Part shown: positions 1,760 to 24,514 of the stretch, piece by piece | How positions within the stretch are numbered: position 1 is the first letter of the stretch | Layout of the letters: each line of letters starts with the position of its first letter | Source of the DNA: a virus | Virus record (IMG/VR): IMGVR_UViG_3300046167_000291 | Span: 1-41,345 of that record | DNA length: 41,345 nt | Direction: 5' to 3' (one strand) | Translations under genes and position numbers: made by a program | The notes under the pieces: model-generated | Seen by the model: only the letters and a program-made list of their open reading frames with translations | Told to the model about the DNA's origin: nothing | Database searches by the model: none

Positions 1760-2638
1760 TTACGTTTTAATACAAGGGAGTAGGGCTACGTTTCGAGAAC
1801 GGGTTTCTGACGCATAGCGGACAGTACCATAGCCAGATAAACTTACAGGCTCCTGAACTCTGTCGGTAAGGTTCTCAGAACCCATAGCGTAAGTACCATT
1901 ACCGCCACCTGAACCATTACTTTGACCACCCAATTTGTGCCCGTGTCCTTGTAGGGCATCAGCCTGTGAGGAACCAAATGTACGTCCGTTGTCTACGCCT
2001 TTGCTGTTGTCCCAGCCACGTATGAACTCACCACGTAAGTCAGGGACATTGAATGTAGACGTTCCGTTACCTGATCCGTGTGTCACACCTATAGCCGCAA
2101 ACAAAGCCGAGTAGGTACTACGGCTAACTGCCGCCCCATTACACTCTATGTAGCCTGTAGGTGCACTTGTGTTTGCAAAATAAGACACAAGACCAGTAGG
2201 TGCACCACTGTTTGCTAGTGCCGCTGTAAGGGCATCTAATTGTGCCTGTATGCCGCTAGTGACTCCATCCACATGATTTAACTCTGCGGTTGTCGCTGTC
2301 AGTCCATCAGTTATGTTCAGTTCGGCTGTGGTGGCTGTAAGGCCATCGGTTATATTCAGCTCTGCCGCAGTTGCGGTGACACCATCAAGTATATTAAGTT
2401 CTGCTACTGTAGACGTAATTCCGTCAAGGGTGTTTAGTTCGGCTGTAGTAGCCGTAACGCCATCTAGAAGATTCAACTCGGCTTGAGTAGCTGTGATTGC
2501 TCCAGTGACGTTTGGTAACGTAGCTTTGATGGTAGACTTTAGAAGTCTGATGTGGTCATCAGCTTGCGCCAAGCCGTCCGTTGAGGCTGGGTTTGAGGCG
2601 TTGAGGCTGTTGACGTAAGTTCCTGTTTCGAGTGCCAT
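1760..2638 (-). CDS. Tail fibre with repeat stalk and collar domain
   Basis: A 292-residue fibre. Residues 1-45 are an N-terminal attachment segment. Residues about 50-125 are six tandem 12-residue units of the form TATTAELNxxDGV, a repeat typical of phage fibre stalks. Residues about 155-292 form a phage tail-collar domain ([18 protein letters not shown], then STFNVPDLRGEFIRGWD, ending in RNVALLPCIKT). Its C-terminal domain is clearly related to that of the 893-residue fibre at 24920-27601. It is the promoter-proximal gene of the leftward late arm, starting at the edge of the 918-nt control region. The start ATG follows AGGAACCCTAGAT, so it has a ribosome binding site next to a copy of a repeated 9-mer. 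Confidence 0.85.
   Translation of the reverse strand: MALETGTYVNSLNASNPASTDGLAQADDHIRLLKSTIKATLPNVTGAITATQAELNLLDGVTATTAELNTLDGITSTVAELNILDGVTATAAELNITDGLTATTAELNITDGLTATTAELNHVDGVTSGIQAQLDALTAALANSGAPTGLVSYFANTSAPTGYIECNGAAVSRSTYSALFAAIGVTHGSGNGTSTFNVPDLRGEFIRGWDNSKGVDNGRTFGSSQADALQGHGHKLGGQSNGSGGGNGTYAMGSENLTDRVQEPVSLSGYGTVRYASETRSRNVALLPCIKT
2261..2476 (-). repeat. Tandem 36-bp repeats encoding fibre stalk units
   Basis: About six imperfect 36-bp units in tandem, each encoding a 12-residue unit with a conserved AELN and DG(V/L/I)T core. Copies differ at synonymous and nonsynonymous sites, so they are diverged rather than recently expanded. The unit length keeps the reading frame, so gain or loss of a copy would change stalk length only. 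Confidence 0.8.
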
Positions 2639-2647
2639 ATCTAGGGT
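2639..2647. repeat. 9-mer ATCTAGGGT, copy 1
   Basis: First of three exact copies within 460 bp of noncoding DNA. Read on the minus strand it is ACCCTAGAT placed directly before the ATG of the collar fibre gene. Confidence 0.55.
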
Positions 2648-2786
2648 TCCTGACTTGTGTTTCTGGGGATGGCTCTTGTTTCAAAGGCCGAACAACAACA
2701 ACAACAAGAACAACCTTTAGCCTTCTTTTTGAAATTGATGTTAAAATTAAGGTACGGGGGGTCTAAAATCCTGTGAACCTATAAAA

Positions 2787-2795
2787 ATCTAGGGT
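2787..2795. repeat. 9-mer ATCTAGGGT, copy 2
   Basis: Second exact copy. On the minus strand it reads ACCCTAGAT followed by TTTTATAGG, an AT-rich stretch 150 bp upstream of the leftward late arm. Confidence 0.55.
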
Positions 2796-3029
2796 CGATC
2801 AATGCTAACCTGTTGTAATCACTGCATAATCATGGGTGAAGGATCAAGTATCCCTGAGTATACACGGGTAAACGTAGTAGACTATCTGATGACATTAGAC
2901 ATTGATTTGCAATATTTATCTGGCTGACATTTTCGACTATTCAACAGACATTGGGACGTTCTAAAGAAACCGACAGCCAACCGCAGACATCACAAGAAAC
3001 CAACCGAGACACCGAAGAAACCATCCTTC

Positions 3030-3069
3030 CCTGGTCAACATCAGGATAAGTACCTGGTCAACATCAGGA
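3030..3069. promoter_or_regulatory. Two tandem operator-like dyads
   Basis: CCTGGTCAACATCAGGA occurs exactly twice, at 3030-3046 and 3053-3069, a period of 23 bp (about two helical turns). Each copy is an imperfect dyad: the left half CCTGGT and the complement of the right half, CCTGAT, match at 5 of 6 positions around a CAAC centre. Tandem dyads with helical phasing between divergent transcription units are typical of phage repressor operators. The helix-turn-helix protein at 5580-6017 is a candidate ligand. That link is inference. Confidence 0.5.
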
Positions 3070-3089
3070 CATCACAAGAAAGACAATCA

Positions 3090-3098
3090 ATCTAGGGT
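3090..3098. repeat. 9-mer ATCTAGGGT, copy 3
   Basis: Third exact copy, followed on the plus strand by TACTATAG, which ends like a T7-family promoter. It lies 21 bp from the operator-like dyads. Confidence 0.55.
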
Positions 3099-3349
3099 TA
3101 CTATAGCTGTCTTCAGTGCTCTAGTTCTTTGCATTGTTTGTCATGGAGAGGATGTTCAAAGGAAGTCTTTAGTAGTCTTGGCCTTGGGAGCATCACGCCT
3201 CCAAGGGAAGTCTGGAGGATGTAGCTCTACCAAGGCCATCACAAGCCTAGATAGTCTGGCTTTGTGGTCTCTTTTGTCGGCTTTGGTTATGTTGTGGGTT
3301 CTAAAGGGTGACACAAGTAATTAAAGGGTACATTAGTTACTATATGTAG

Positions 3350-3378
3350 TTGACGAGGGATACATCTTTTGATATTCC
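3350..3378 (+). promoter_or_regulatory. Possible host sigma70 promoter for the early arm
   Basis: TTGACG at 3350-3355 matches the -35 consensus at 5 of 6 positions. A 17-nt spacer follows, then TATTCC at 3373-3378, a weak -10. It points rightward, about 180 nt ahead of the first early gene. It is only a sequence match, and the early genes need at least one host-type promoter because they precede the phage RNA polymerase. Confidence 0.3.
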
Positions 3379-3432
3379 TTAGGCATACCGAAGGCATTTG
3401 CCCGAAGACTATAGTGGGCGACAGGCCGCAAG

Positions 3433-3496
3433 GTGTGGCAGGGGACTGTAACTCCCTAAGCACACAAGGCGGAAACAGTCGCTTCCCTCGCCACAC
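3433..3496 (+). other. Cloverleaf-like / tRNA-like fold
   Basis: A perfect 7-bp outer stem (GTGTGGC 3433-3439 with GCCACAC 3490-3496) encloses a 5-bp stem with a 7-nt loop (GGGGA, loop CTGTAAC, TCCCT at 3441-3457) and a second hairpin (GGAA 3471-3474 with TTCC 3483-3486). The first inner hairpin is a perfect anticodon-arm match, with T33 and a GTA (Tyr) triplet. There is no canonical TTCRANY T-loop, so it is not a normal tRNA. It may be a decayed tRNA, a tRNA-derived attP or a structured leader RNA. Confidence 0.4.
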
Positions 3497-3527
3497 AAGG
3501 GTCAGGGATACAGTCAGACAGCAAGTA

Positions 3528-3546
3528 CCTTCTTAACCAAAGAAGG
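3528..3546 (+). promoter_or_regulatory. Hairpin covering the first early ribosome binding site
   Basis: CCTTCTT (3528-3534) pairs perfectly with AAGAAGG (3540-3546) over a 5-nt loop. The right arm is the ribosome binding site for the gene starting at 3557, 10 nt downstream. Folding would hide it. Confidence 0.5.
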
Positions 3547-3556
3547 AAACACTAGA

Positions 3557-3961
3557 ATGACAAATGAAACAAACACAGCAATTATCACTAAAGTTATTGA
3601 CTTAGTAACATCAGATAAACCTGACCCTATCACCCAGTATTTGACCGAGACCTTTTGTGAGTTAGGCAACTACGAAACAGCAGAGCAAATGATTGAAGGC
3701 TTATACTCGGCGTCTTGGGAGAGTGGTAGCTTCGGTTTGTGCTACAACTACGAACTATTCGACAAACTTGCAGTCCATGATTGGCAGTTGGCAATCAATG
3801 GTTGCCTTGAAGAGTATGAGGACGCAACTGGCGAGAGTTTATCTATAAGCAATATCACAGGTGCAGTGACATTCGCCATTGATTGGACAGCCAACCAAAT
3901 AGCCAGCTCAATGGAATACCACCTTGAAGCAGTAGCTGAAGAGTTGGGAGAAGTAGCATGA
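3557..3961 (+). CDS. Highly acidic early protein, first gene of the rightward arm
   Basis: A 134-residue protein with 24 Asp/Glu, only 3 Lys and no Arg, so it is strongly negative. There is no signal peptide or membrane segment. The sequence looks alpha-helical, with a central stretch rich in aromatics (SFGLCYNYELFDKL). I do not recognise the family with certainty. Its position as the first early gene and its acidity recall T7 gp0.3 (Ocr), a DNA mimic that blocks host restriction enzymes, but I see no sequence match to Ocr, so that is only an analogy. The ribosome binding site AAGAAGG lies in a hairpin. The stop overlaps the next ATG (ATGA). Confidence 0.75.
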   Translation: MTNETNTAIITKVIDLVTSDKPDPITQYLTETFCELGNYETAEQMIEGLYSASWESGSFGLCYNYELFDKLAVHDWQLAINGCLEEYEDATGESLSISNITGAVTFAIDWTANQIASSMEYHLEAVAEELGEVA

Positions 3962-4065
3962 GACACCTAGTCAACCGCTTATCAACTCCTGAGTTCTGGG
4001 CAGACTTTGCCTTGGCTTGTGCAATCATGGTTACGCCCTTCGTTGCCTTCTACGCATACAACTGA
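3958..4065 (+). CDS. Small membrane protein (35 aa)
   Basis: ATGA overlap with the preceding stop suggests translational coupling. The peptide runs MRHLVNRLSTPEFWADFALA, then a hydrophobic stretch to FVAFYAYN, so it has one probable membrane helix at about residues 14-33 with a basic N-terminus inside. No family is recognised. Early phage membrane peptides often act on the host envelope or on superinfecting phage, but nothing here shows which. Confidence 0.55.
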   Translation: MRHLVNRLSTPEFWADFALACAIMVTPFVAFYAYN

Positions 4066-4069
4066 GCCT

Positions 4070-4105
4070 ACTGGTGCACCCATGCTACGGCGTGGGTCAT
4101 CCAGT
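4070..4105 (+). ncRNA. Intergenic hairpin A in the early operon
   Basis: ACCCATG (4078-4084) pairs with CGTGGGT (4091-4097) over the loop CTACGG. Outside a 3x3 internal loop, ACTGG (4070-4074) pairs with CCAGT (4101-4105). There is no U-tract, so it is not an intrinsic terminator. A similar hairpin occurs at 4706-4725 in the same relation to the next gene. Confidence 0.5.
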
Positions 4106-4142
4106 GGACTTAGCCACTACAACAACTGAAGGAACTAAAGCA

Positions 4143-4316
4143 ATGACACCAAGAGAAACTTACACGAAGAAAACACTTTTCCTATCACAAGCACCGAATT
4201 TCAACTTTGAGCTGAACGCGGAGCAAATACTTGAGAAGGCACTGGAAGCAGGGTTCGTCACTAAGATCGGCGACGACCTGTTTGAAATCAACAATTCATA
4301 TGGGGAAGCAAACTAA
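4143..4316 (+). CDS. Early hypothetical protein (57 aa)
   Basis: The start is placed at the ATG at 4143, which follows GAAGGAACTAAAGCA. The frame is open further upstream, but that part encodes sequence overlapping hairpin A and has no ribosome binding site. The protein opens MTPRETYTKKTLFLSQAPNF. It is helical in its second half (NAEQILEKALEAGFVTKIGD) and soluble. No family is recognised. The stop overlaps the next ATG (TAATG). Confidence 0.6.
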   Translation: MTPRETYTKKTLFLSQAPNFNFELNAEQILEKALEAGFVTKIGDDLFEINNSYGEAN

Positions 4317-4486
4317 TGGAAATCACAGCAAATAACTTTTTCGCTACTCCAGAGACAATGGAACAGTTGAACAACTGGATCAAGGCTACGAATGATCCAG
4401 CAGTCGCTACAGCCGCAATGATGATGCAGAACTTTATTGCCGCCAATTACACTTTGACACCCAAGAAAAGTGGAGAAAGCGAATGA
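4316..4486 (+). CDS. Early hypothetical protein (56 aa)
   Basis: The start overlaps the previous stop (TAATG) and is preceded by GGGGAAG. The sequence opens MEITANNFFATPETMEQLNN and contains a Met/Ala-rich helix (AVATAAMMMQNFIAANY). It is soluble and no family is recognised. Tight coupling on both sides (ATGA at its end) supports it as a real member of the early operon. Confidence 0.6.
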   Translation: MEITANNFFATPETMEQLNNWIKATNDPAVATAAMMMQNFIAANYTLTPKKSGESE

Positions 4487-4692
4487 GCACTTCAATTCAT
4501 ACAGCGACAAGGGTTGAAATAGTTAATGGAGCACTGGCAGACTGTCAGGCTTCATTGCAAGCCTCTTATGATTACATCAAGGACAGCAAACTTAGCTTCC
4601 ACCAAAGCGGAAAGAAGAAAGATGAGCTACTAGAGCAAATCAATATTTCTCTGACCATACTTGGGTTGATGAAGATGGGAAGCACCAGTTGA
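4483..4692 (+). CDS. Early hypothetical protein (69 aa)
   Basis: Coupled to the previous gene by an ATGA overlap, with GTGGAGAAAG as ribosome binding site. The sequence is helical and polar, with a Lys-rich patch (SGKKKDELLEQINISL) and a short hydrophobic C-terminus. No family is recognised. It precedes hairpin B. Confidence 0.6.
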   Translation: MSTSIHTATRVEIVNGALADCQASLQASYDYIKDSKLSFHQSGKKKDELLEQINISLTILGLMKMGSTS

Positions 4693-4703
4693 TTGCATCA
4701 GTT

Positions 4704-4727
4704 AGCCCAGCGTCTAGGCGTTGGGTT
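4704..4727 (+). ncRNA. Intergenic hairpin B in the early operon
   Basis: CCCAGCG (4706-4712) pairs with CGTTGGG (4719-4725) over the loop TCTAGG, extendable by two pairs (AG with TT). It has the same 7-bp stem and 6-nt loop form as hairpin A. It is likewise followed within about 50 nt by a GAAGGA ribosome binding site and a start codon. Confidence 0.5.
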
Positions 4728-4770
4728 TGCTCATGCAATCACGCATGGAACTAAAGAAGGAACAAAAGAA

Positions 4771-5019
4771 ATGGCTAAGAAAACTAAATTGACTGAGTAC
4801 CAGATTGAACTTTTGGCAGAATACAAAGCCAACAAAAAGGCAATGGATGGACTTACCCCAAAGCAATTAAAAGCAATAGCTGACACACGGGAGACACTTC
4901 AGTCAGTCACTAACATGATCAATGAGGTGCAAGACTTATACCTGACTGACATTGCGAAACTTAATCAAGCATTCTGGGACATGGAGAACGCATTTAAAAC
5001 GGAGGCGAGCTGGTCATGA
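4771..5019 (+). CDS. Early hypothetical protein (82 aa)
   Basis: The start is the ATG at 4771 after GAAGGAACAAAAGAA. An upstream TTG in frame would run through hairpin B and is unlikely. The protein opens MAKKTKLTEYQIELLAEYKA and is almost entirely helical and charged, probably a small helical bundle or coiled coil. No family is recognised. Its stop overlaps the next ATG (ATGA). Confidence 0.65.
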   Translation: MAKKTKLTEYQIELLAEYKANKKAMDGLTPKQLKAIADTRETLQSVTNMINEVQDLYLTDIAKLNQAFWDMENAFKTEASWS

Positions 5020-5186
5020 CTGAAGAACTCACCAGATACCGCATCTTGCTTGAGGACGAGAAGTACAGCGTTGACCTTCGCACCTACAACGACAGGGAAA
5101 CAGCTGAACATCACGCAAAACTTTATGAACAAATCACAGGCGGTAAAACGTCAGTATTTCAGGAGGTCTATTACAATGATTATTGA
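5016..5186 (+). CDS. Early hypothetical protein (56 aa)
   Basis: Starts by ATGA overlap with the previous gene. Reads MTEELTRYRILLEDEKYSVD and ends VFQEVYYNDY. It is soluble, charged and probably alpha/beta. It overlaps the next gene by 11 nt and contains that gene's AGGAGGT ribosome binding site. No family is recognised. Confidence 0.6.
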   Translation: MTEELTRYRILLEDEKYSVDLRTYNDRETAEHHAKLYEQITGGKTSVFQEVYYNDY

Positions 5187-5391
5187 TTACACAGCAGAAA
5201 CAGCAGTTGAAGCACTACAAGTAGCTTTGTTCAGAAGTCTAACAGCAAGCACTGTAGAAAAAAGTTCAGCGGCATCTAGCCTAGCGCAAGCAATGGCTGA
5301 CAAATTAACAGCAAAGGAACTAGAGCAAGCCAAAGCTGGAGCAATAGAAATGGCAGTTCGTGAGCATTATGGAAGGAAAGCAAATGGGTGA
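5176..5391 (+). CDS. Early hypothetical protein (71 aa)
   Basis: The ATG at 5176 follows a strong AGGAGGT at a 9-nt spacing. The frame is open upstream, but that part runs through the preceding gene. The protein is Ala-rich and helical, opening MIIDYTAETAVEALQVALFR, with a basic C-terminus (REHYGRKANG). No family is recognised. Confidence 0.65.
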   Translation: MIIDYTAETAVEALQVALFRSLTASTVEKSSAASSLAQAMADKLTAKELEQAKAGAIEMAVREHYGRKANG

Positions 5392-5587
5392 AGTAATTCA
5401 ATTGAATGCTGATTATGCGTTAGGAATGCAGTCAGCAAGGGAAGCAGTAGCGTCAGGCGACATCTACTGTATTGAAAGTGCGCTAATGCTTTACGAGCAA
5501 GACCCAGCGGACAGTGAGTTCCAAAGGGGACACCACAGAGCACTTATAAACTTACACCAGCAACAGAAGGGAAAAGCAAATGTTTAA
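5384..5587 (+). CDS. Early hypothetical protein (67 aa)
   Basis: The start is placed at the ATG at 5384 behind GGAAGGAAAG. A GTG 24 nt upstream is in frame but lacks a ribosome binding site. Reads MGEVIQLNADYALGMQSARE, then a likely helical repeat (ALMLYEQDPADSEFQRGHHR) that resembles one TPR-like helix pair, though this is too short to assign. It overlaps both neighbours by a few nt. Confidence 0.6.
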   Translation: MGEVIQLNADYALGMQSAREAVASGDIYCIESALMLYEQDPADSEFQRGHHRALINLHQQQKGKANV

Positions 5588-6017
5588 GGGAGCAAACTAT
5601 ATACAAAACAAGTCAGGGCGTATCCATAATATCTTTGGATATGATGCCGCTAAAGTTCTTGAAGTTAAGAGTGATGATGAAATCACAGTCTACTTTTATA
5701 ACTTCAAGGCGTTAGGGGAAACCTCTCCAATTAAAGACATTATGAACCTAAAGAATGAAGACTTGTGGCATTTCTTAGAAGTTTACGGGGTACACAGTAT
5801 TGAAGGTGTTGTTGAAATTGAGAGACCTACAGAAATCATAACTGACCAGCACGCATTTCTGCTTGGGCTTCTTTTAGGTAAATATAAAAAAGAGCAGAGC
5901 CTTGCAACTGTCTTAGGTGTGTCACCAAAGCTGATCACTCGCTGGAAGAGGGGTGAGAAAATGTCATCTAAAAGACTACAGCAGTGCACAGACTTGGCGA
6001 AAGGAATTTCACAATGA
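5580..6017 (+). CDS. Helix-turn-helix regulator, candidate lysogeny repressor or Cro-like protein
   Basis: A 145-residue protein. Residues about 1-85 form an alpha/beta N-terminal part of unknown fold. Residues about 92-143 form a helix-turn-helix: a helix (FLLGLLLGKYKKEQSLATVLG), the turn VSP, then the recognition helix KLITRWKRGEKM and a supporting helix. The QSLATVLGVSPKLITRWKRG pattern is that of Cro/CI-like (XRE-type) DNA binding. It overlaps the integrase start by 4 nt, so the two are co-translated. A role in the lysogeny decision or in control of integrase is the natural inference. The tandem dyads at 3030-3069 are candidate binding sites. The DNA-binding part is at the C-terminus, unlike lambda CI, where it is N-terminal. 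Confidence 0.7.
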   Translation: MFKGANYIQNKSGRIHNIFGYDAAKVLEVKSDDEITVYFYNFKALGETSPIKDIMNLKNEDLWHFLEVYGVHSIEGVVEIERPTEIITDQHAFLLGLLLGKYKKEQSLATVLGVSPKLITRWKRGEKMSSKRLQQCTDLAKGISQ

Positions 6018-6907
6018 CCTTTCTTGAGTTAGTCCAAATGGACGCAAAGCTAATTTGGGACGGGGAAGCCCACCGAGCCCGAAGCATCACAAAAGCCGAG
6101 CGATTTGCCTCTTTCTCTGATTATGAGACAAGGGGCATCGGCGAATTTAAGCCTAGCCACATCCACCGCTTCTTTGACAGCCTACAGGAGCAAGGGCTGT
6201 CTAATAATACCATTAATCACTATGGGGCAATGATAGTTAAGGTTTTCTCTCATGCAGTATCTGAAGAGCATATTTCTCATGTACCCAAGTTTAAGTACCG
6301 AAAGGTCAAAGGCAACCAAAGACCTTTGTACTTTACAAAGTCTCAAATAGACTTAATGTCGTCTTACTTTCGGAATAGTTCGGAATTTGGTGGTTTAGAA
6401 CATTATTTGACCATTGGCATACAAACTGGAATGCGTATTGGTGAGATAAGGAGTATAAACGAACGCACATTAATACTTGATGAAACAGGCGGCTATTCAG
6501 TTTACCTAGCTGAGACAAAGAATGGCGACAGCCGCACAGTACCAATTAATGACAAAGCCCTAAGAGCAGTTCGTGCTCTAGGAACTGATGTCTCTAAGAA
6601 CTGGAACAGTAAGCTGTTTTATCGTGGGTGGAAGCACATGAGGAGAGCCGTTTTAAATGGAGACACTCGCTACACCTTCCATACAACAAGACACACCTGT
6701 GCGACAACACTGGCGAACAGCGGAGCATACAACACAGACTTAATTGGTCGTTTCTTGGGACACCGAGACCTAAACACGACCCGTAAATACATCAAGACAG
6801 CACCAGAGACCTTGAGGTCTATGGCTGAGCTAATGAGAGGAGAGAGAAACAAAACATTTGCAGAACCACAAGCCAAGCAGGCTGATCTGTTTGGACTGGA
6901 AATATAA
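6014..6907 (+). CDS. int: Tyrosine recombinase (phage integrase)
   Basis: A 297-residue tyrosine recombinase that would insert the phage DNA into a host attachment site. The N-terminal half (about 1-110) is the core-binding SAM-like domain. The catalytic residues are all present: R141 (TGMRIGE), K169 (ETKNGDSRTVP), H223 and R226 (HTTRHT), H250 (GHRD) and nucleophile Y259 (TTRKY), nine residues after H250 as usual. The start at 6014 has AAGGA upstream and overlaps the regulator stop. An earlier GTG is in frame but unsupported. An integrase beside a T7-type RNA polymerase is known in some temperate T7-like phages, including marine ones. No excisionase was recognised. Confidence 0.95.
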   Translation: MTFLELVQMDAKLIWDGEAHRARSITKAERFASFSDYETRGIGEFKPSHIHRFFDSLQEQGLSNNTINHYGAMIVKVFSHAVSEEHISHVPKFKYRKVKGNQRPLYFTKSQIDLMSSYFRNSSEFGGLEHYLTIGIQTGMRIGEIRSINERTLILDETGGYSVYLAETKNGDSRTVPINDKALRAVRALGTDVSKNWNSKLFYRGWKHMRRAVLNGDTRYTFHTTRHTCATTLANSGAYNTDLIGRFLGHRDLNTTRKYIKTAPETLRSMAELMRGERNKTFAEPQAKQADLFGLEI

Positions 6908-6925
6908 AAAGGGAAGTAAAGTAAG

Positions 6926-7051
6926 ATGAGAAATACAGTTATAAAAGCAAGCCTAACCAATGGTGGACATGGGCGACCAGTGACAAACTGGTGTAACCCA
7001 TACACAGCCCCACCTGTAGCACTTATTAAATCAGGGGGAGCCAACACATGA
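6926..7051 (+). CDS. Small hypothetical protein (41 aa) before the RNA polymerase
   Basis: The ATG at 6926 follows GGGAAGTAAAG. The frame reads MRNTVIKASLTNGGHGRPVT and stops at TGA overlapping the RNA polymerase start (ATGA). It contains the GGGGGAG ribosome binding site of the polymerase gene. It may serve as a coupled leader peptide. The same stretch contains a hairpin (ACCAGT with ACTGGT), so it could instead be a noncoding leader. Confidence 0.45.
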   Translation: MRNTVIKASLTNGGHGRPVTNWCNPYTAPPVALIKSGGANT

Positions 7052-9627
7052 GCAACGAGAGCACACAGGCCAACCCAATCTCTCAGGCATACAACGAGAC
7101 CATGAAGGAAGATGGCAGAACAAAGTGGCAAGAGAAATACGAACAGGCAGACAACGTTACAGAGCAAGCACCAGAATACAACCAGTTAAAGCAAGTCTTA
7201 GACAAGGTTGCAGAAGGATTATCAAAAGACATAGAGGAAGCCAGAAGAGGCAAAGGACGCCGCCCAACGTGGCTTAATGACCTTATGCACTTAGACCCAC
7301 GACAGCTGGCACTCATTGGCCTTCAAAGCTGTTACAATGCAGTCCTTAAAGACAGCACCATGAACGCAGTTACTCAGGAAATAGGTGGCCTGATCGACAG
7401 GGAATGCCTCGCCCTTGAGTTGTTGCATAGTGAGGATGATGAAGCCAACAAGAACAACGCTAGGATTGTTAAGATGGTTTCAGAGACGCATACATCTGCA
7501 CACGTCAGGCTGAAGGCACTCAGGAACATAGCAACCAAAAATGGCACCAAGTCTAAGTATTTCGGTATTTCAGAAACTAAAGCCGACAGAAAGATGCACA
7601 AGAAAAGACGCACAGCAAACTCAGCACCAGTTCTTTCAGCTATCTTTCAGTATTGTAATGTCTTCCAAAAGGACACCCAATATACAACGCCAAAAAACAG
7701 CATTACTCGCCTTGCGTTCACTGATGAAGCCCAGCGCGAACTTGAGAGAAGCAAAGAGTATCTACAGTGGTCACAGCCGCTACTAAAACCTATTCCTATG
7801 GACACTCCGAACCCGTGGACAGGATACCACACGGGGGCTTATAAGGACTGGCGTTTAGCAGAGTTAGTAAAGCTGGTTCGAGGGGCTTCAGTGAAGCAAA
7901 TTGAGGCCATAGAGCACAGTTTCAAAGGTGAAATTCCAGAGCACTATAGAGCACTCAATGCACTCCAAGAAACGAGACTTTGTATCAACGAGGAAATGCT
8001 TGAAGTTGTAGAATGGTGCTGGGAGACACGGCAGTCATTCGGTAAGTTTCCAAAGAGAGATAAACCTGAGTTTCCGAGGCTACCCAAAGATCACATGACA
8101 ATGGATCAGGAGCTAAAGAAAGCAATCAAAGAAGACCAACGTGAATGGAGAAATACGGAGAGGCGTGTCAAAGGTGCTGAAGCAGTCATGAAGCAAGATT
8201 TGCAGATTGCTAATGAACTGGCAGTGCACGACTGGTTTACAATCCCTTGGGCTTGTGACTTCCGTGGTCGCTTCAACATGGTTCCGTCTTTTAACTACCA
8301 TCGTGATGACCACATAAAGTCTCTCTTTCAGTTTCAAAGAGGACGTGTAGTCGATGGTCAGAACATTCGTTGGCTCAAGATACATATTGCCAACTGTAGT
8401 GGTTTTGAGAAGATCGACAAAGCACCTCTTGAAGATCGTGTGGCTTGGTTTGATAAAAATGAGGGTGTGCTGTTGGACATGGCTAAAGACTATAAGAACA
8501 GTCTGGGTCAATGGTCTGGCGCGGACAAGCCTTTTCAAATGTTAGCGGCTATCTTCGAATATTCCAGATACCTTGAGGAACGTGAAGACTTTGTTGGATT
8601 TATACCAATTTCACTTGATGGGACTAATAGTGGCGTTCAGCATTATTCGATGCTTACTCGTGGAGAGGATGAGGGTAAACTTGTAAACCTAGTCCCACAG
8701 GCTGAAATGGCTGACCTTTATCAAACTGTTGCTGACAAGGTACAAACGAGGCTCAAGACTGATCTAAGTGACAGTAGTGACTTTAGGAAGAACCCCATCA
8801 GTAAGGCCGAACTTGCGCGTATTTGGTTGGACTATGGTGTGGACAGGAAGCTATGTAAGAGACCATCAATGGTTTTCGCCTATAGTTCTGTTGCGGCTGG
8901 TATGACTGGTCAGTTCATGGAAGACGTAATGAAACCGCTACAGCGTGACGTGAGCTATGGAGACATCGAGTTTCATCCGATTGCTAGGACTAATAAAGAG
9001 CGAAAAGTTGCGGCTCGTTACCTTGCTGAACATTGCTATGACAGTATCGTGGAAACTTTGCCCAAGGCGGCTGAAGCAATGAAGTGGATACAGTCGTGTA
9101 CCAATGTTCTCAGCAAGCAGAACAAGCTGGTCAACTGGACTTCGCCCAGCGGCTTTAGAATATTCCATAACTATTTAAAGCGAGACCGAGTAGAGACCAA
9201 GATATTCTTGTTTGATACAGCGGTGGGCATGAGAACTAGGTCTAAAGTTTCTTTGTCTATGGATACAGGGAAGGTCGATGTTAGGAAAAACACAGCATCA
9301 GTAGCGGCTAATTTTATACACTCTTTAGATGCGGCTGGCATGGCTAAAACCATAATCCTACTGTTAGACGCTGGAGCTACTGAAGACTTCTTTATGATCC
9401 ATGACAGCTTCGCAATCTCAGGGGATGTAGACGAGTTATATCATGGTGTCCGTGAAGCCCACATTCAGATGTATTCTGAAGAAAACCTACTGCTGAAGTG
9501 GCAAGAGGAACTCAGGCAACAGCTGGAGCATCCTTTCGATTTTGAGAAGTCTGACGTTCCTCCAATACCACAGATGGGAAACCTTAATTTACAGCTGATA
9601 AGGGACAGCCAATTTTGCTTCAGTTAA
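7048..9627 (+). CDS. T7-type single-subunit DNA-directed RNA polymerase
   Basis: An 859-residue enzyme (T7 gp1 has 883) that transcribes phage genes from phage-specific promoters. Catalytic motif A is ISLDGTNSGVQHYS with D524. The fingers motif B is CKRPSMVFAYSS with K604 and Y612, equivalent to T7 K631 and Y639. Motif C is MIHDSFA with D786, equivalent to T7 D812. AANFIHSLDAAGMAKT precedes motif C as in the family. The N-terminal 300 residues correspond to the promoter-binding and RNA-exit domain and are poorly conserved, so promoter specificity cannot be predicted. A GGGGGAG ribosome binding site precedes the start. Two hairpins follow the gene, the second a clear intrinsic terminator, matching a host-transcribed early unit that ends here. 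Confidence 0.97.
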   Translation: MSNESTQANPISQAYNETMKEDGRTKWQEKYEQADNVTEQAPEYNQLKQVLDKVAEGLSKDIEEARRGKGRRPTWLNDLMHLDPRQLALIGLQSCYNAVLKDSTMNAVTQEIGGLIDRECLALELLHSEDDEANKNNARIVKMVSETHTSAHVRLKALRNIATKNGTKSKYFGISETKADRKMHKKRRTANSAPVLSAIFQYCNVFQKDTQYTTPKNSITRLAFTDEAQRELERSKEYLQWSQPLLKPIPMDTPNPWTGYHTGAYKDWRLAELVKLVRGASVKQIEAIEHSFKGEIPEHYRALNALQETRLCINEEMLEVVEWCWETRQSFGKFPKRDKPEFPRLPKDHMTMDQELKKAIKEDQREWRNTERRVKGAEAVMKQDLQIANELAVHDWFTIPWACDFRGRFNMVPSFNYHRDDHIKSLFQFQRGRVVDGQNIRWLKIHIANCSGFEKIDKAPLEDRVAWFDKNEGVLLDMAKDYKNSLGQWSGADKPFQMLAAIFEYSRYLEEREDFVGFIPISLDGTNSGVQHYSMLTRGEDEGKLVNLVPQAEMADLYQTVADKVQTRLKTDLSDSSDFRKNPISKAELARIWLDYGVDRKLCKRPSMVFAYSSVAAGMTGQFMEDVMKPLQRDVSYGDIEFHPIARTNKERKVAARYLAEHCYDSIVETLPKAAEAMKWIQSCTNVLSKQNKLVNWTSPSGFRIFHNYLKRDRVETKIFLFDTAVGMRTRSKVSLSMDTGKVDVRKNTASVAANFIHSLDAAGMAKTIILLLDAGATEDFFMIHDSFAISGDVDELYHGVREAHIQMYSEENLLLKWQEELRQQLEHPFDFEKSDVPPIPQMGNLNLQLIRDSQFCFS

Positions 9628-9646
9628 TACTTATGTCACCCTTCAG

Positions 9647-9693
9647 AAGCCCCTAGTGTCTCCTCCCTCCTCCTCCTAAGACACTAGGGACTT
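9647..9693 (+). terminator. Hairpin after the RNA polymerase gene
   Basis: CCCTAGTGTCT (9651-9661) pairs perfectly with AGACACTAGGG (9679-9689) over a pyrimidine-rich 17-nt loop. AAG and CTT outside extend the stem past one mismatch. There is no U-run, so it may protect mRNA or be a processing site rather than a classic terminator. Confidence 0.6.
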
Positions 9694-9707
9694 CTTCTCC
9701 CAAACAT

Positions 9708-9742
9708 AAAGGCCATCTCTAGTAACTAGGGGTGGCCTTTTT
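9708..9742 (+). terminator. Intrinsic terminator of the early unit
   Basis: AAAGGCCATCTCTAG (9708-9722) pairs with CTAGGGGTGGCCTTT (9726-9740) along 15 positions with two G-T pairs, followed by a T-run. It is strong and close to the SSB start (9761). This matches the early terminator of T7, where host RNA polymerase stops after gene 1 and its followers. Confidence 0.85.
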
Positions 9743-9760
9743 CATTAGAAAGACAAAAGT

Positions 9761-10303
9761 ATGCCTAAGAAACAAAAGATCAACTTCCAGACACCAACTG
9801 GCGTGGCTAAGTATCCACACCTACTGAAACCTGACACAGCCTTCGATACTGAAGGTAAATATAAGTCAGAAATATTGCTGTCTCCAGAAGACGCAAAGCC
9901 TTTGATTAAGATCATTGAGGATGCGGCTAAAGCAGAACATGGGAAGGCTAATTACAGAGTTCCTTATCAAACGGATGAAGACACTGGTGAAGTGGCATTC
10001 AAACTTCAGTCAAAGTACATGCCAGAGTTTTATGACACAGCTGGTCAAAAAGTGCCAGTAAATGCCTTACCACAGATCGGTGGTGGCAGTCGTTTGAGAC
10101 TTAAAGGGTTCTTAAATGTCTACAAAGTAAGCGGACAGGCTGGGGTGTCTATCACGCTACAAGCTGTCCAAATTGTCGAAGCCGTCCAAGGAATGAATGG
10201 AACAGGCTTTGGCGCAATCGAGGAAGGTGGGTTCACTATAGACACATCAGCAATCGATGCACCTTTTGCACCCACTGGAAATGAAGACAACTTTGACTTC
10301 TAA
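9761..10303 (+). CDS. Single-stranded DNA-binding protein, T7 gp2.5-like
   Basis: A 180-residue SSB that would coat single-stranded DNA at the replication fork and contact polymerase and primase-helicase. The OB-fold region is about residues 5-145 (NFQTPTGVAKYPHLLKPDTA through LRLKGFLNVYKVSG). The tail is acidic and ends in phenylalanine (GNEDNFDF), the hallmark of gp2.5-type proteins, which use this tail for protein contacts. It begins 19 nt after the early terminator, so its expression should depend on the phage polymerase or readthrough. Endonuclease I overlaps its end. Confidence 0.85.
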   Translation: MPKKQKINFQTPTGVAKYPHLLKPDTAFDTEGKYKSEILLSPEDAKPLIKIIEDAAKAEHGKANYRVPYQTDEDTGEVAFKLQSKYMPEFYDTAGQKVPVNALPQIGGGSRLRLKGFLNVYKVSGQAGVSITLQAVQIVEAVQGMNGTGFGAIEEGGFTIDTSAIDAPFAPTGNEDNFDF

Positions 10304-10724
10304 TCACAGATACCGAGGTATCAAAGAAGGCTATAGGTCAGGTCTTGAAGTTGGTGTTGCTGAAGAACTCAGGAGACTAGGTATTCCGTTTACCTACGAG
10401 ACCGAGAGGTTTTCATACTTAATCCCATCGCGGACTGCCAAGTACACCCCAGACTTTATTCTCCCAAAGGCTGGTGGTGTGTGGTTTTTAGAAACCAAAG
10501 GACGATGGGTGACAGCTGATCGACAGAAACATGTGTTGATTAAGAAGCAACTGCCAGACCTTGACCTACGTTTTCTTTTCCAGAATGCAAACGCAAAGTT
10601 GTATAAGGGGTCAAAGACTTCTTATGCAGACTTTTGCATCAAGAATGGTTTCGAATGGGCACATAAGCGAATACCATCAGAGTGGATTGAGGAATGCCAT
10701 ATAGGCATGAAGCAAGCCAGATAA
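10281..10724 (+). CDS. Endonuclease I, Holliday-junction resolvase (T7 gp3-like)
   Basis: A 147-residue enzyme (T7 gp3 has 149) that cuts branched DNA and helps degrade host DNA. Active-site residues match T7: E23 (RSGLE), E40 (FTYETE), D58 (YTPDF), E71 and K73 (LETKGRW). The KLYKGSKTSYADFC segment and EWI near the C-terminus are also conserved. The start at 10281 is chosen because it gives the T7-like distance to RSGLE. An upstream ATG at 10257 is in frame. The gene overlaps the SSB gene by 23 nt, which implies coupled translation. Confidence 0.93.
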   Translation: MKTTLTSNHRYRGIKEGYRSGLEVGVAEELRRLGIPFTYETERFSYLIPSRTAKYTPDFILPKAGGVWFLETKGRWVTADRQKHVLIKKQLPDLDLRFLFQNANAKLYKGSKTSYADFCIKNGFEWAHKRIPSEWIEECHIGMKQAR

Positions 10725-10733
10725 AGAGAGCAT

Positions 10734-10759
10734 AGGGCGGTCTTCGGGTCGCCCTTTTT
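10734..10759 (+). terminator. Intrinsic terminator after endonuclease I
   Basis: AGGGCG (10734-10739) pairs with CGCCCT (10750-10755), with a further G-T pair and a TCTTCGGG loop, followed by TTTTTC. It is a compact terminator between endonuclease I and primase-helicase. Confidence 0.85.
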
Positions 10760-10780
10760 CTATTATAAGGGAAGCAACAA

Positions 10781-12367
10781 ATGAATGAACAAGAAGAGAG
10801 CACTTTTGTGTCTCACGAACAATGCGATGCCTGTGGGTCATCGGATGCAAACAGCCTTTACAGCGATGGACATATGTTCTGCTTTAGTTGTCTAAAACAC
10901 ACCCCAGCTGAAGGTGAAATATCACCTGTCGAAAAGACAAATGCAGCCAACTCTTTTTTGAACGGCGATTACATGGAATTAAGGTCACGAAAGTTGACTG
11001 AAGCTACATGCCGTAAGTTTGGTTACTTTGTGACTAAAGACAGCAAAGGTGAGCCAGTACAGGTAGCAACCTTCAAGGATGCCAAGGGTAAGACAACAGG
11101 CCAGAAGATACGCACCAGAGACAAGCAGTTTCCTACAATTGGAAAGATCACTGGTCTCTTTGGTATGCACCTTTGGTCAGCTGGTAAGAAGCTGGTGATT
11201 ACAGAAGGTGAGATAGACGCCATGAGCGTCAGTCAAGTGCAACAGCATAAATTCGCTACAATATCTGTGAGGAATGGCAGTGCTGGAGCTAAGAAAAATT
11301 TGTTGGAAAACATAGATTACCTTAACAACTTTAAAGAGATAATCTTAATGTTTGATCAGGATGAAGCTGGACGTAAGGCCGCCATTGAGTGTGCTGAAGT
11401 CTTGCCCATTGGTAAAGTTAAGATTGCTGTCTTGCCACACAAGGATGCTAATGAGTGTCTTGTAAAAGGTGAGGCTGGAGCGATCATCAATGCCATACAT
11501 CAGGCGGCTGACTACAGACCTGATGGCATAGTTCAGATGTCTGACATGAGAGAGACTGTAGCAACTCCAGACGCTGAGAGCCCAATGAAGTACCCATATC
11601 CAAGAGTGAACAATATGCTCAAAGGTATACGTCAGGGAATTGTGACCATAGTGGCTGGTAGTGGCACAGGTAAGTCTACATTAATTCGTGAGATTGCTTA
11701 CAACTTACACATGACAGGAACACGGGTTGGCATGTTGATGCTAGAAGAAAGCACCAAGCGTACAGCCCAAGGTCTCGTAGGTCTCCACATCAATAGAAAT
11801 ATTGTGATTGATGAGGATGCGGCAACACAAGAGGAGATAAAGACTGGCTTTGACGACTTGCTGTCTCATGGTCAAATCTACCTCTTTGATCACTTTGGGT
11901 CATTTGACATAGACACCATTTGTAATCGTATCAGGTACATGAAGCATGGGCTTGGGTGTGATGTCGTCTTCTTAGATCATATTAGTATTCTCGTTAGTTC
12001 GTATGCTGGTGCAAGTGACAACGAGAGAGTGCTCATAGATCACATCATGCACACTCTGACAGTCTTATGTACTGAGTTGGACTTAGCCTTAATCCTTGTG
12101 TCACACTTAAAGAGACCAAACTCCGAAAGAGGTCATGAAGGTGGCGATAGAGCACAGCTGTCACAGCTGAGAGGAAGCCACAGTTTAGCACAGCTGGCGA
12201 CTGCCTGTATTGCTATGAACGTGGACAGCGAAGACCCAACATCAGGCAAGCGAGAACTTGTCGTACTCAAGAATAGGCATACGGGTTTCGTAGGCCAAGC
12301 GGATGAACTTCAGTACAACCGCGAAACAGGCAGACTTACTGCCACAGATAGTAACTTCGGTTTCTAA
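10781..12367 (+). CDS. Primase-helicase, T7 gp4-like
   Basis: A 528-residue bifunctional enzyme (T7 gp4A has 566) that makes RNA primers and unwinds the fork. The N-terminal zinc ribbon has C15, C18, C34 and C37, the same spacing as T7. The TOPRIM primase core carries VITEGEIDAM (E142) and LMFDQDEAGR (D192, D194). The RecA-like helicase has Walker A AGSGTGKST (K298), and VVFLDHISILVS acts as Walker B. LVSHLKRP and SQLRGSHSLAQLA are later helicase motifs. The start is the ATG at 10781 after AAGGGAAG. It is preceded by a terminator and followed by a small winged-helix gene. Confidence 0.95.
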   Translation: MNEQEESTFVSHEQCDACGSSDANSLYSDGHMFCFSCLKHTPAEGEISPVEKTNAANSFLNGDYMELRSRKLTEATCRKFGYFVTKDSKGEPVQVATFKDAKGKTTGQKIRTRDKQFPTIGKITGLFGMHLWSAGKKLVITEGEIDAMSVSQVQQHKFATISVRNGSAGAKKNLLENIDYLNNFKEIILMFDQDEAGRKAAIECAEVLPIGKVKIAVLPHKDANECLVKGEAGAIINAIHQAADYRPDGIVQMSDMRETVATPDAESPMKYPYPRVNNMLKGIRQGIVTIVAGSGTGKSTLIREIAYNLHMTGTRVGMLMLEESTKRTAQGLVGLHINRNIVIDEDAATQEEIKTGFDDLLSHGQIYLFDHFGSFDIDTICNRIRYMKHGLGCDVVFLDHISILVSSYAGASDNERVLIDHIMHTLTVLCTELDLALILVSHLKRPNSERGHEGGDRAQLSQLRGSHSLAQLATACIAMNVDSEDPTSGKRELVVLKNRHTGFVGQADELQYNRETGRLTATDSNFGF

Positions 12368-12410
12368 AAACTCCCCAAAACAAAAACATTAGTAAAGCAA
12401 AGGAACACGT

Positions 12411-12704
12411 ATGCGTGGTTTATCAAGCACGTCTCGCGAGGCGTATGCAAACACAGATTTAACAAAGAACACAAGAATGGTTTTCGATGTCATTCAAGCC
12501 GCTGGCGACAAAGGTTGCATCAGTGCACAGGTACAGCTGGCACTCAAGCACATGCCGTATGGCTCAATCACCAACCACTTTAAATGGCTGAAAGACGCTG
12601 GGCTGATCACAGTCATAGGGAAGCGCAAAAGTCCGTATGGACGCAACCAACAGATATTTAAAGCAACAAGACAACTCGATGCACAAGGGGAGCTATTTAG
12701 ATGA
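12411..12704 (+). CDS. Winged helix-turn-helix protein (97 aa)
   Basis: Residues about 20-78 look like a winged helix: NTRMVFDVIQAAGDKGCISA, then a helix-turn-helix around AQVQLALKHMPYGSITNHFK, and a wing with VIGKRKSPYGRNQ. It may bind DNA as a transcription or replication factor. Exact family and target are unknown. AAAGGAACAC precedes the start, and the MazG gene starts inside its last codons (4-nt overlap), placing it in the replication operon. Confidence 0.7.
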   Translation: MRGLSSTSREAYANTDLTKNTRMVFDVIQAAGDKGCISAQVQLALKHMPYGSITNHFKWLKDAGLITVIGKRKSPYGRNQQIFKATRQLDAQGELFR

Positions 12705-13063
12705 AAACTACAGGAACACACCAATACACAATGAACCAGTACCAAGCTGACGCGGCTAAGACTATGATCTACAAGTGGAAGGTTATCTATCCAGCTTTAG
12801 GTCTAGCCAATGAGGCTGGCGAAGTCCTTGGTAAGATCAAAAAGCTAATCAGAGATAATGATGTAACTTTTGATGGCATTGATACAATCCCAGCGCAAAA
12901 GAGAGCAGAGATAGCTGACGAGTTGGGCGATGTACTCTGGTACATAGCGGCACTATCAAAAGACCTTGGGATAACTCTGAATGAGGTCGCCGCAATTAAT
13001 CATGAGAAGCTACAGTCACGACAGAAACGTGGTGTTCTCAAAGGTTCTGGTGACAAGCGATGA
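12701..13063 (+). CDS. mazG: MazG-like nucleotide pyrophosphohydrolase
   Basis: A 120-residue single-domain all-alpha NTP pyrophosphohydrolase. The metal-binding pairs are visible: E38 and E41 in LANEAGEVLGKIKK, and E74 and D77 in DELGDVLWYIAALS, followed by LNEVAAINHEKLQSRQKRG, the usual MazG C-terminal helix. It hydrolyses nucleoside triphosphates to monophosphates. In phages it has been proposed to clean the nucleotide pool or alter the host stringent signal. It sits between the winged-helix gene and DNA polymerase with 4-nt overlaps on both sides. Confidence 0.92.
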   Translation: MKTTGTHQYTMNQYQADAAKTMIYKWKVIYPALGLANEAGEVLGKIKKLIRDNDVTFDGIDTIPAQKRAEIADELGDVLWYIAALSKDLGITLNEVAAINHEKLQSRQKRGVLKGSGDKR

Positions 13064-14829
13064 GTCGTTGGGTATGGGACTTAGAGAGCAACGGGCTGTT
13101 AGACACCATCCACACTATCTGGTGCATTGTCTGTCGTGAGGTGGACACTGGTGAAGTCCGTAAGTTTAACCCAGACCAGATCGAGGACGCACTTGAACTA
13201 CTAGCCAGTGCTGATGAGATCATAGGTCACAACATTATCGACTACGACATCCCAGCGATACAGATTGTATTCCCTGAGTGGACAACTAAAGCCAAGGTTA
13301 CTGACACTTTAGTTCTGTCGCGCCTGATACATGGCGACATGTTTAATGAGGATGCTGAACGCAACTTCAGTGTCTCTAAGTTTCCTAAGAAACTTTGGGG
13401 AAGCCACAGCCTAAAGGCTTGGGGTCTTCGCCTTGGTGACTTCAAGGATGACTATGATGGTGGGTGGGAAGCCTACAGTGAAACTATGATGTCTTATTGC
13501 GTTCAAGATACTCAAGTGACGGACACCCTTTATAAGAAGTTGATGAAGACTGAGCCTACTCAGAAGTCTATCGACCTTGAGCATCGCATGGCATCCATCT
13601 GCCGTGAGATCGGTAGTAATGGCTGGACATTCGATGAGAAGAAAGCTGGTGAACTGTATGCTGAACTTGCACAGAAACGCCATGTCATTGAGGAAGACTT
13701 AAAGGAGCTGTTTCCACCTTGGGAAGTTACTGAAGACTTCTATCCTAAAGTCAATAACAAGGCTCGTGGTTATGTCAAAGGTGAGCTGTTTGTTAAGTCT
13801 AAGACAGTCTACTTTAACCCAGCGTCTAGGGTGCACATACAAAGATGTCTTGTGGACAAGTACAAGTGGAAGCCAAAAGAGTTTACTCCAAATGGTCAGG
13901 CTAAGATTGACGAAACCATCTTGGCTAGTCTTCCGTACCCAGAGGCTAAGAGGCTTGCTGAGTTCTTTTTAATACAAAAGAGGATTGGTATGTTAGCTGA
14001 AGGTGCTGGGGCATGGCTAAAGAAGGTCAGTGCTGATGGTAAACTTAGACATAGGCTGAATAGCAATAATTGTGTTTCTTCGAGAGCCACAGCGACATCT
14101 CCAAACCTACAGCAAGTCCCAAGTTCTGGCTCACCTTATGGCAAAGAGTGTCGTGAGTTGTTCACAGCACCAGATGGATGGGTCATTTGCGGAGCTGATC
14201 TTTCGGGGATCGAGTTGCGCCTACTTGCTTCTTACCTTCACCCTTATGATGGCGGCGAGTATTCAAAGCAAATTCTTGAGGGTGACATCCACACCTACAA
14301 CCAACATGCGGCTGGTTTAGCTACAAGGTCTCAGGCAAAAACATGGGTATACGCCGTGTTATATGGCGGTGGTGATAGGCTCATAGGTGCTATTGCTGGT
14401 GGCGGTGCAAAGAAGGGTAAACAACTAAAGGACAACTACGATCATGCTGTCCCAGCGTTTTCTACCTTAAAGAGAAACCTAAAGACAGCGGCTAAAAGAG
14501 GCCACATCAAGGCACTCGATGGGCGCAAACTCAGGATCAGATCGGAGCATAGATGCCTGTCACAGTTACTTCAATCAGCTGGGGCAATCGTAGCAAAACA
14601 GTGGGTCATGATGACTTACGACAAAATCAAAGAAAAGTATGGCGACGATGCGTACATCATGGGCTGGATTCATGATGAAATTCAAGTCGCCTGTAAAACA
14701 GAAGGGATTGCCGAAAATGTCGGAAATATCGCTGGAACAATGGCATCAGAAGCTGGCATTGCTCTCGGACTTAACATTGCCATTGCCTCAGAATATTCCG
14801 TGGGAAAGTCTTGGGCTGACACTCACTGA
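13060..14829 (+). CDS. DNA polymerase, family A with 3'-5' exonuclease
   Basis: A 589-residue replicative polymerase. The exonuclease domain has motif I WDLESNG (D7, E9), motif II GHNIIDYDIPA and motif III YCVQDTQVTD. The polymerase domain has motif A GADLSGIELR (D380), motif B RSQAKTWVYAVLYGGG (K427) and motif C IHDEIQ (D539). T7 gp5 is 704 residues. The shortfall lies in the thumb region between exonuclease and motif A (about residues 190-375), where T7 carries its thioredoxin-binding loop, so this enzyme probably uses another processivity solution. That is inference from length. The start overlaps mazG by 4 nt. Confidence 0.96.
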   Translation: MSRWVWDLESNGLLDTIHTIWCIVCREVDTGEVRKFNPDQIEDALELLASADEIIGHNIIDYDIPAIQIVFPEWTTKAKVTDTLVLSRLIHGDMFNEDAERNFSVSKFPKKLWGSHSLKAWGLRLGDFKDDYDGGWEAYSETMMSYCVQDTQVTDTLYKKLMKTEPTQKSIDLEHRMASICREIGSNGWTFDEKKAGELYAELAQKRHVIEEDLKELFPPWEVTEDFYPKVNNKARGYVKGELFVKSKTVYFNPASRVHIQRCLVDKYKWKPKEFTPNGQAKIDETILASLPYPEAKRLAEFFLIQKRIGMLAEGAGAWLKKVSADGKLRHRLNSNNCVSSRATATSPNLQQVPSSGSPYGKECRELFTAPDGWVICGADLSGIELRLLASYLHPYDGGEYSKQILEGDIHTYNQHAAGLATRSQAKTWVYAVLYGGGDRLIGAIAGGGAKKGKQLKDNYDHAVPAFSTLKRNLKTAAKRGHIKALDGRKLRIRSEHRCLSQLLQSAGAIVAKQWVMMTYDKIKEKYGDDAYIMGWIHDEIQVACKTEGIAENVGNIAGTMASEAGIALGLNIAIASEYSVGKSWADTH

Positions 14830-15094
14830 GAAGAACGATTACTTAGAGAACTTATTGCTTCTCTTTATAATCATTGATCGTGCGTGGCGTAAGCCATTCA
14901 CAGTCAAATCAGACTTCGCAAGAGTAGGAGCACTTCACGTTGCCATCGCGGCAAGTGAAGGCTTTATAACAAATCAAATAGATGAAGATAGCTGGGGCAA
15001 TCGTTGGTTCGTAACCCTAGATGGACAGGATATACACGATGAAATCAGCAGAACTCTTAAAGAAGTCATTTACAAAACCCACATTACTCATTGA
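14717..15094 (+). CDS. Hypothetical protein overlapping the polymerase end (125 aa)
   Basis: The likely start is the ATG at 14717 (MSEISLEQWHQKLALLSDLT), 113 nt inside the polymerase gene, with AAGGGA about 12 nt upstream. The protein has a hydrophobic patch (LENLLLLFIIIDRAW), then KSDFARVGALHVAIAASEGF and WGNRWFVTLDGQD. The second half resembles a small helical regulator, but I cannot name a family. It overlaps the exonuclease gene as well, so translation is tightly coupled. The exact start is uncertain. Confidence 0.6.
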   Translation: MSEISLEQWHQKLALLSDLTLPLPQNIPWESLGLTLTEKNDYLENLLLLFIIIDRAWRKPFTVKSDFARVGALHVAIAASEGFITNQIDEDSWGNRWFVTLDGQDIHDEISRTLKEVIYKTHITH

Positions 15095-15803: not shown

Positions 15804-16042
15804 ATGAAGCTGTAAACAAACCGCCTCATTACAACACAGGATCAATCGAGTGCATCGATGCAATGCAAGCGATGGCTGATGGCTCTCTAGTCTGGGGTCA
15901 CAATGCGTACCTCTGGCAGAATGCTTTCAAGTATCTGTGGCGTTGGCCTTACAAGAAAAAACCCGTCGAAGACCTAAAGAAGTGCCGCTGGTACTTGGAT
16001 CGACTCATTTCACTCATTGAAGAAAAAGAAGAAACACTATGA
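15785..16042 (+). CDS. DUF3310 family protein
   Basis: An 85-residue protein with the family signature: VNKPPHYNTGSIECIDAMQA near the N-terminus, then WQNAFKYLWRWPYKKK and PVEDLKKCRWYLDRLI. DUF3310 proteins are frequent in phages beside nucleotide-metabolism genes and are sometimes labelled nucleotide kinases without direct evidence. It lies between the exonuclease and the ribonucleotide reductase with overlaps on both sides, which fits a role in nucleotide supply. Function is unproven. Confidence 0.9.
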   Translation: MDTDKIDEAVNKPPHYNTGSIECIDAMQAMADGSLVWGHNAYLWQNAFKYLWRWPYKKKPVEDLKKCRWYLDRLISLIEEKEETL

Positions 16043-17637: not shown

Positions 17638-17682
17638 CTTTCCCTATGAAGTCACCAGAAGGCTCAGTTCACCCGTCACGAC
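17638..17682 (+). pseudogene. nrdJ: Frame-disrupted linker of the ribonucleotide reductase
   Basis: The expected family residues appear in successive frames: VFSFP at 17630-17644, MKSPEGSV at 17646-17669, then TRHD at 17671-17682 leading into MTAIEQLEMW. Each switch needs the skipping of one extra base, at 17629 (t), 17645 (t) and 17670 (c). Three single-base additions sum to a full codon, so the last part returns to the original frame, but two stops remain between. Confidence 0.8.
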
Positions 17683-18033: not shown

Positions 18034-18053
18034 AAATAACCAAGGAGAGGCTA

Positions 18054-18855: not shown

Positions 18856-18859
18856 GTTA

Positions 18860-24495: not shown

Positions 24496-24514
24496 TATAT
24501 TTTCCAATCCAATT

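Follow-up and report, generated by a model that had tools for sequence, protein, structure and literature searches.

T7-like phages usually hold to one gene direction. In iteron origins, exemplified by lambda ori and plasmid iterons, tandem units of about 20 bp carry an internal dyad. LUZ100 is a T7-like phage with an RNA polymerase and an integrase, for which MarR-like lysogeny control is reported, with proposed regulator sites that flank a promoter upstream of the polymerase, in a conventional T7-like gene order (PMC10134795). In phi29 the regulator p4 and the nucleoid protein p6 jointly control the early promoters and the late promoter, and p6 dimers, each occupying 24 bp, recognize bendability and not an exact word (PMC10899789). 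The text consulted on a Sulfitobacter podovirus does not contain the word promoter (PMC10386132).

The stretch of DNA analyzed here (the window, 41,345 bases from an IMG/VR virus record) belongs to an uncultured marine phage whose genes include those for a tyrosine integrase and a T7-type RNA polymerase. In relatives, genes 131 and 40119 are adjacent, so the record was opened at an arbitrary point of a circular assembly. The rightward arm (3557-18686, + strand) holds early and replication genes, with products including the tyrosine integrase, the T7-type RNA polymerase, SSB, endonuclease I, helicase-primase, MazG, polymerase A, and ribonucleotide reductase, and the leftward arm, starting from 2638 on the − strand, holds tail and head genes. 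The two arms converge near 18700-18860, where an inverted repeat, CAAAAAACACAGATCGC, with T runs (18810-18856) looks terminator-like on both strands. The integrase is of the tyrosine type (Pfam PF00589, E 7.9e-19) and about 25-32% identical to those of pelagiphages, LUZ100, and others; named RNA polymerases, the best among the matches listed, are 27-30% identical to that of the window; and the portal belongs to PHROG 1216, its best named matches, in Pseudomonas, Vibrio, and other phages, being about 26-31% identical. T7-type polymerase and replication genes, a PHROG 1216 portal, and divergent arms occur together in this one genome. At 23440-24220 and 25360-25770, minus-strand genes of the tail region contain long runs of short repeats that by eye resemble collagen-like G-X-Y.

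Early and late arms here diverge from one 0.9-kb control region, and the repeat pair considered below is a testable site within it. Compared with 50,697 phage records, positions 2600-3600 gave no DNA match at E 1e-5, and in the literature searched we found no account of switching in such a divergent-arm control region, no occurrence of the 16-mer core of the repeat, and nothing describing 2639-3556. The features of the region are as follows.

2639..3556, no strand: non-coding divergence point (918 bp) between the tail-fiber arm (−) and the early arm (+)
2848..2855, − strand: outward motif AGGGATAC toward the late (tail) arm, in 14 of 14 core-family sequences
2951..2957, + strand: conserved TTGGGAC, 95-97 bp from the left outward motif in 9 of 9 dyad genomes measured
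2951..3180 (approximate; to 3230), no strand: 10-bp-periodic arrays, GACAACC-type on the + strand, inverted on the right
3030..3046, + strand: copy 1 of CCTGGTCAACATCAGGA (17 bp); 7 of 12 two-copy contigs keep its 16-bp core exactly
3046..3052, + strand: linker ATAAGTA (AYAAGTN in relatives), completing the 23-bp unit; its first base is base 17 of copy 1
3053..3069, + strand: copy 2 of CCTGGTCAACATCAGGA; 12 of 12 two-copy contigs keep its 16-bp core exactly
3350..3363, + strand: outward motif TTGACGAGGGATAC toward the early arm, present in some form in 11 of 14 core-family sequences

The initial annotation had described an exact 17-bp repeat, each copy an imperfect dyad, seen nowhere else and spaced about two helical turns in the divergent control region. 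The repeat itself is confirmed. The two copies match at 17 of 17 positions with a period of 23 bp, and they lie inside the non-coding 2639-3556, between both arms. With up to 3 mismatches allowed, CCTGGTCAACATCAGGA occurs in the window at these two places only, where 0.10 matches are expected and none of 100 shuffles gave two copies. Within 2639-3556 the longest exact direct repeat at distances of 8-60 is 17 nt, against a maximum of 13 in 1000 dinucleotide shuffles. Each copy does contain an imperfect dyad (6+4+6, with 5 of 6 Watson-Crick pairs), but 16-mers with an equally good dyad number 8 in 2639-3556 against a shuffled mean of 4.7; since dyads of this quality are so common, the symmetry alone is no evidence. 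The spacing needs correction too, as 23 bp corresponds to 2.2 turns at 10.5 bp and not exactly two. The pair is best described as a direct 23-bp repeat whose core is nearly palindromic.

Relatives were gathered by scans with the tail fiber, the first early gene, the integrase, and the word CCTGGTCAACATCAGGA. The search for the dyad in related genomes, which the initial annotation had proposed, gave a divided answer: the pair recurs at the same 23-bp period in 11 other contigs (12 with the window), but 10 of 18 control-block haplotypes are without it. These 18 distinct blocks come from loci with both anchors, identical blocks having been merged and L131, L019, L020, L007, and the distant relatives set aside; 7 have two copies, 1 has one copy, and 10 have none, 5 of these 10 having come through a search for a 20-bp element, CTTAYGCGTTCCAGTAKACC, which is treated below. 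Among haplotypes reached by gene searches, 8 have the repeat (the window included; 7 two-copy, 1 one-copy) and 5 do not. The one-copy haplotype, L113, reads in comparison with L062 as the loss of one 23-bp unit, and apparently reached its single-copy state in this way. At up to 2 mismatches, 8 of 10 relative records of 12-42 kb hold the word, once or as one 23-bp pair. Pair scans of IMG/VR match only contigs of the window's phage family (6 with the exact pair, 7 with a relaxed dyad pair), and the exact 16-mer alone is found there in 25 stretches, 11 in this family and 14 outside it with dissimilar flanks. A 20-row tree of gene 131 requires 3 changes in the two-copy state vs 6.9 for shuffled labels, 2 of the 3 being forced by well-supported branches. 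The state groups by lineage, though some close pairs (L027/L015, for example) are split.

The two copies are not equally conserved. In the 12 two-copy contigs, copy 1 is exact in 7, has ACAAGG for ATCAGG in 4, and CGGC for CAAC in 1, so that the right arm is altered in 4 contigs (2 haplotypes) and the loop in 1; the one-copy relative has its variant in the left arm. With each distinct haplotype counted once (the 18-block set and L019), 8 of 8 have an exact copy 2 and 5 of 8 an exact copy 1. The core variants, which are few, include no compensated change across the dyad. In an alignment of about 900 bp from dyad genomes, invariant columns were taken from 7 of 12 aligned rows, near copies and the short L019 being set aside; with a gap treated as a change, 42% of columns do not vary, and only four unvarying runs reach 12 columns or more, copy 2 among them. 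When L027 is compared with the window by BLAST, 2820-3029 and 3075-3164 remain unaligned, and the 45 bp with the pair align. These patterns favor constraint on the pair, though recent segment exchange between relatives could partly account for its conservation. What the relatives hold is a repeat conserved where it occurs, lodged in the control region, and optional.

One rival reading traces it to its surroundings. The 10-bp period is present in the left and right blocks (mean z 3.1 and 3.0 at lag 10, from 21 related sequences and single-base shuffles), and the units of the periodic arrays at 2951-3230 expand and contract among relatives. The 23-bp unit could have arisen by slippage in AC-rich repeats and have no function of its own, in which case the arrays matter or nothing does. 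Consistent with this, the unit contains GTCAACATC and GATAAGT/GACAAGT at 11-12 bp spacing, its copy number is 2, 1, or 0 across relatives, and other expansions occur there in relatives, such as the repeated GACAACCAAT units of L006. Copy 2, however, is unaltered in 12 of 12 two-copy contigs while much of its surroundings diverges, and we regard a slippage product without function as unlikely.

The reading we tentatively prefer, at somewhat less than an even chance, is that the pair is a putative tandem site for protein binding, specific to its lineage and lodged in a rapidly changing slot upstream of both arms, with a phage or host protein as its partner. Its relation to possible promoters constrains how such a site might act. 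The pair stands between the two outward-facing conserved motifs, which by position and conservation are putatively promoter-like; the right one was counted as (A/G)GGGA after TTGACG, and a form of the left one is found in 1 of 11 distant relatives (L029 only). The gap from the pair to the left motif is 119-177 bp in 9 genomes, a spread of 58 bp, and that to the right motif is 281-379 bp in 8 of those 9 (L019 ends too early), a spread of 98 bp. Because the gaps to both motifs vary, the promoter geometry is not fixed. Scanned for sigma-70 promoters, 2500-3700 gave 3 sites vs 2.1 expected, none of them beside the pair. A phage-polymerase promoter family is not supported: a search for similar 22-mers gave no convincing group (top 46 examined, outside 23400-27500), and the window shows no excess of ACGAGGGATACAT when up to 3 mismatches are allowed (12 vs 7.8, a count reached in 17 of 100 shuffles). 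For a repressor operator overlapping a promoter, a constant distance to the promoter was not found when the motifs are taken as the putative promoters, another promoter possibly having been missed, and no cognate regulator gene of the early region travels with the pair. Such free spacing is unlike that of an operator lying on a promoter and makes action from a distance or within a nucleoprotein array more likely.

Two further conserved stretches lie in the same region. At 3416-3482, a strongly conserved GGGCGACAGGCCGCAAGGTGTGGCAGGGGACTGTAACTCCC...GTCGC (10 aligned sequences), when folded by eye, gives a cloverleaf whose anticodon arm is tRNA-like; ARAGORN found nothing in it, and Rfam nothing above threshold. 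Upstream of the tail fiber, at 2684-2760, a conserved CAACAACAACAACAAG tract is followed by CTTTTTGAAATTGATG and a GGGGGG run, recognizable in distant relatives.

Repeats of this kind might also act as RNA, with a leader transcript forming two stem-loops or a single long nested hairpin. In + strand RNA, 6 of 6 arm positions pair, one of them as G-U, and an 18-nt stretch that includes copy 2 has a folding energy of -6.0 kcal/mol (z -2.3) vs -3.6 (z -1.1) on the − strand. The 52-nt stretch with both copies, however, reaches only z -1.8 on the + strand, stem compensation is not seen, and Rfam gives nothing above threshold and a single chance-level match below it. The larger 2940-3330 folds with z -2.2 on the + strand and -2.1 on the − strand, the A+C / G+T contrast of its left and right blocks having been measured at the split chosen for maximum contrast. 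In the test of block duplexes, a genome's own left/right partner was the best in 1 of 13 genomes, so there is no left-right specificity and a giant hairpin as a specific structure is rejected. A role as RNA hairpins seems improbable.

If a protein binds the pair, two products of the rightward arm could be considered.

5580..6017, + strand: product proposed by the initial annotation as the regulator, with a helix-turn-helix-like C-terminus; not co-conserved with the pair
12411..12704, + strand: 97-aa winged-helix-like protein between helicase-primase and MazG, an alternative DNA-binding candidate

The C-terminal helix-turn-helix of the first is weakly supported (HTH_3, E 0.08), and with a mean pLDDT of 45 only the order of helices can be read from its model. 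Its proposed partnership does not hold up across relatives: among 22 loci searched it was matched only in L087/L110 (one haplotype, 100% identical), and five dyad haplotypes, all readable in the early region (L002, L005/L107, L083/L112, L116/L118, and L113), lack it. More generally, none of the early ORFs of at least 40 aa within 6.5 kb of the fiber start is common to every dyad genome and lacking in the rest; this test of cognate genes covered the early region, in relatives as far as polymerase A. The 12411-12704 protein (mean pLDDT 55, again with only helix order readable) is 93-100% identical in the 10 loci with a match, whether the pair is present (L110, L118, L130) or absent (L131). Such a protein could act on the shared arrays, but not on the pair by itself.

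The initial annotation's broader reading, a repressor or activator site controlling both arms, survives in part. It agrees with the position of the pair between the divergent arms and the outward motifs and with the invariant run at copy 2; the lack of co-conservation with 5580-6017, the 10 of 18 haplotypes without the pair, the variable gaps, and the uncompensated dyad speak against it. In our preferred reading as a tandem protein-binding site, each 23-bp unit with its near-palindromic 16-bp core would bind a dimeric phage or host protein, the two copies being occupied next to each other on about the same helical face. The bound pair would then modulate early and/or late transcription from a distance and not by covering a promoter, either through looping or by organizing the 10-bp-periodic region into a nucleoprotein complex. 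Protein binding, the dimer, regulation, and the arm concerned are all what we infer here. The kind of feature is familiar and its role modest.

Several pair-less relatives carry, in the same part of the region, the non-coding 20-bp element CTTAYGCGTTCCAGTAKACC, which is absent from the window; relatives with it include L009, L030, L131, and L002, the last having both it and the pair. It is the most interesting loose end of this analysis. IMG/VR contains CTTAYGCGTTCCAGTAKACC in 34 stretches with one match each, and seven of the 31 loci examined have a polymerase only 36-47% identical to that of the window. In 5 of 5 loci with both matches it lies between fiber and integrase, oriented along the early arm in 1 and against it in 4, and L034 and L035 share flanks although only L034 carries it. 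A coding origin is rejected, the frames before the apparent VYWNA end having only 4-41 codons (17 loci). It gave 0 matches in bacterial DNA from 6 genomes of one phylum.

One possibility is that CTTAYGCGTTCCAGTAKACC is an attachment core, and the pair or this neighbor might be the attP core or an accessory site of the encoded tyrosine-type integrase. The inverted CCTGGT/ATCAGG arms flanking a 7-bp linker would suit such a role, and CTTAYGCGTTCCAGTAKACC is nearby in 7 of 10 pair-less vs 1 of 8 pair haplotypes, a near-exclusion biased by the fact that five of those seven were found by searching for CTTAYGCGTTCCAGTAKACC itself. On the integrase tree (12 rows), however, 4 changes are required to explain where the pair is present, and shuffled labels require no more (mean 3.6); the SAM-like domain starts near residue 42 of 307, which would leave little room for an arm-binding domain. 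One pattern-based GTDB scan with the integrase alignment returned a single 23% match, in Flavobacterium, and no integrated relative, which is why no attL or attR was seen. In L131, the integrase region reads as two shorter overlapping frames, perhaps frameshifted. An integrase site at the pair or its neighbor is, in our view, rather improbable. Distinctly unlikely as it may be, the place between the arms could be a cassette slot shared across a broad family of phages that encode an integrase and a T7-type polymerase, with related phages exchanging short cis-modules there (the 23-bp pair or CTTAYGCGTTCCAGTAKACC) that would determine attachment site, immunity type, host-factor dependence, or a similar trait. 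If this were true, an exchange of tens of bases could change how a phage's lifestyle is controlled, and the pair would gain importance if exchangeable slot elements prove to set integration or immunity.

A packaging site is rejected: L160 has CTTAYGCGTTCCAGTAKACC and not the pair, yet its terminase and portal are 99% and 97% identical to those of the window, and this near-identity makes a terminase-recognized site that differs between the two unlikely. Direct 23-bp repeats with an internal dyad may also be bound by a replication initiator. GC skew is positive across 3001-18000 and mostly negative from 18001 onward, which fits a start near the divergence point, but gene direction alone explains this skew. 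Replication here relies on a T7-like gene set (helicase-primase, polymerase A, SSB), with no initiator among the subset of gene products scanned, and L131 lacks the pair while its helicase-primase is 90% identical over the part held. We consider replication iterons very improbable.

Set against the described systems, the pair resembles iteron origins in its tandem units of about 20 bp with an internal dyad, and differs from them in having only two units, in being optional, and in the lack of an initiator gene among the proteins scanned. LUZ100 differs in that its proposed sites flank the polymerase promoter, whereas the pair is placed between diverging arms; a Pfam scan of 18 window proteins gave no MarR-like match. 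With phi29, no p4 or p6 match was found among the window proteins scanned; the likeness lies in a small tailed phage whose p6 dimer covers 24 bp, close to the 23-bp unit of the pair (PMC10899789).
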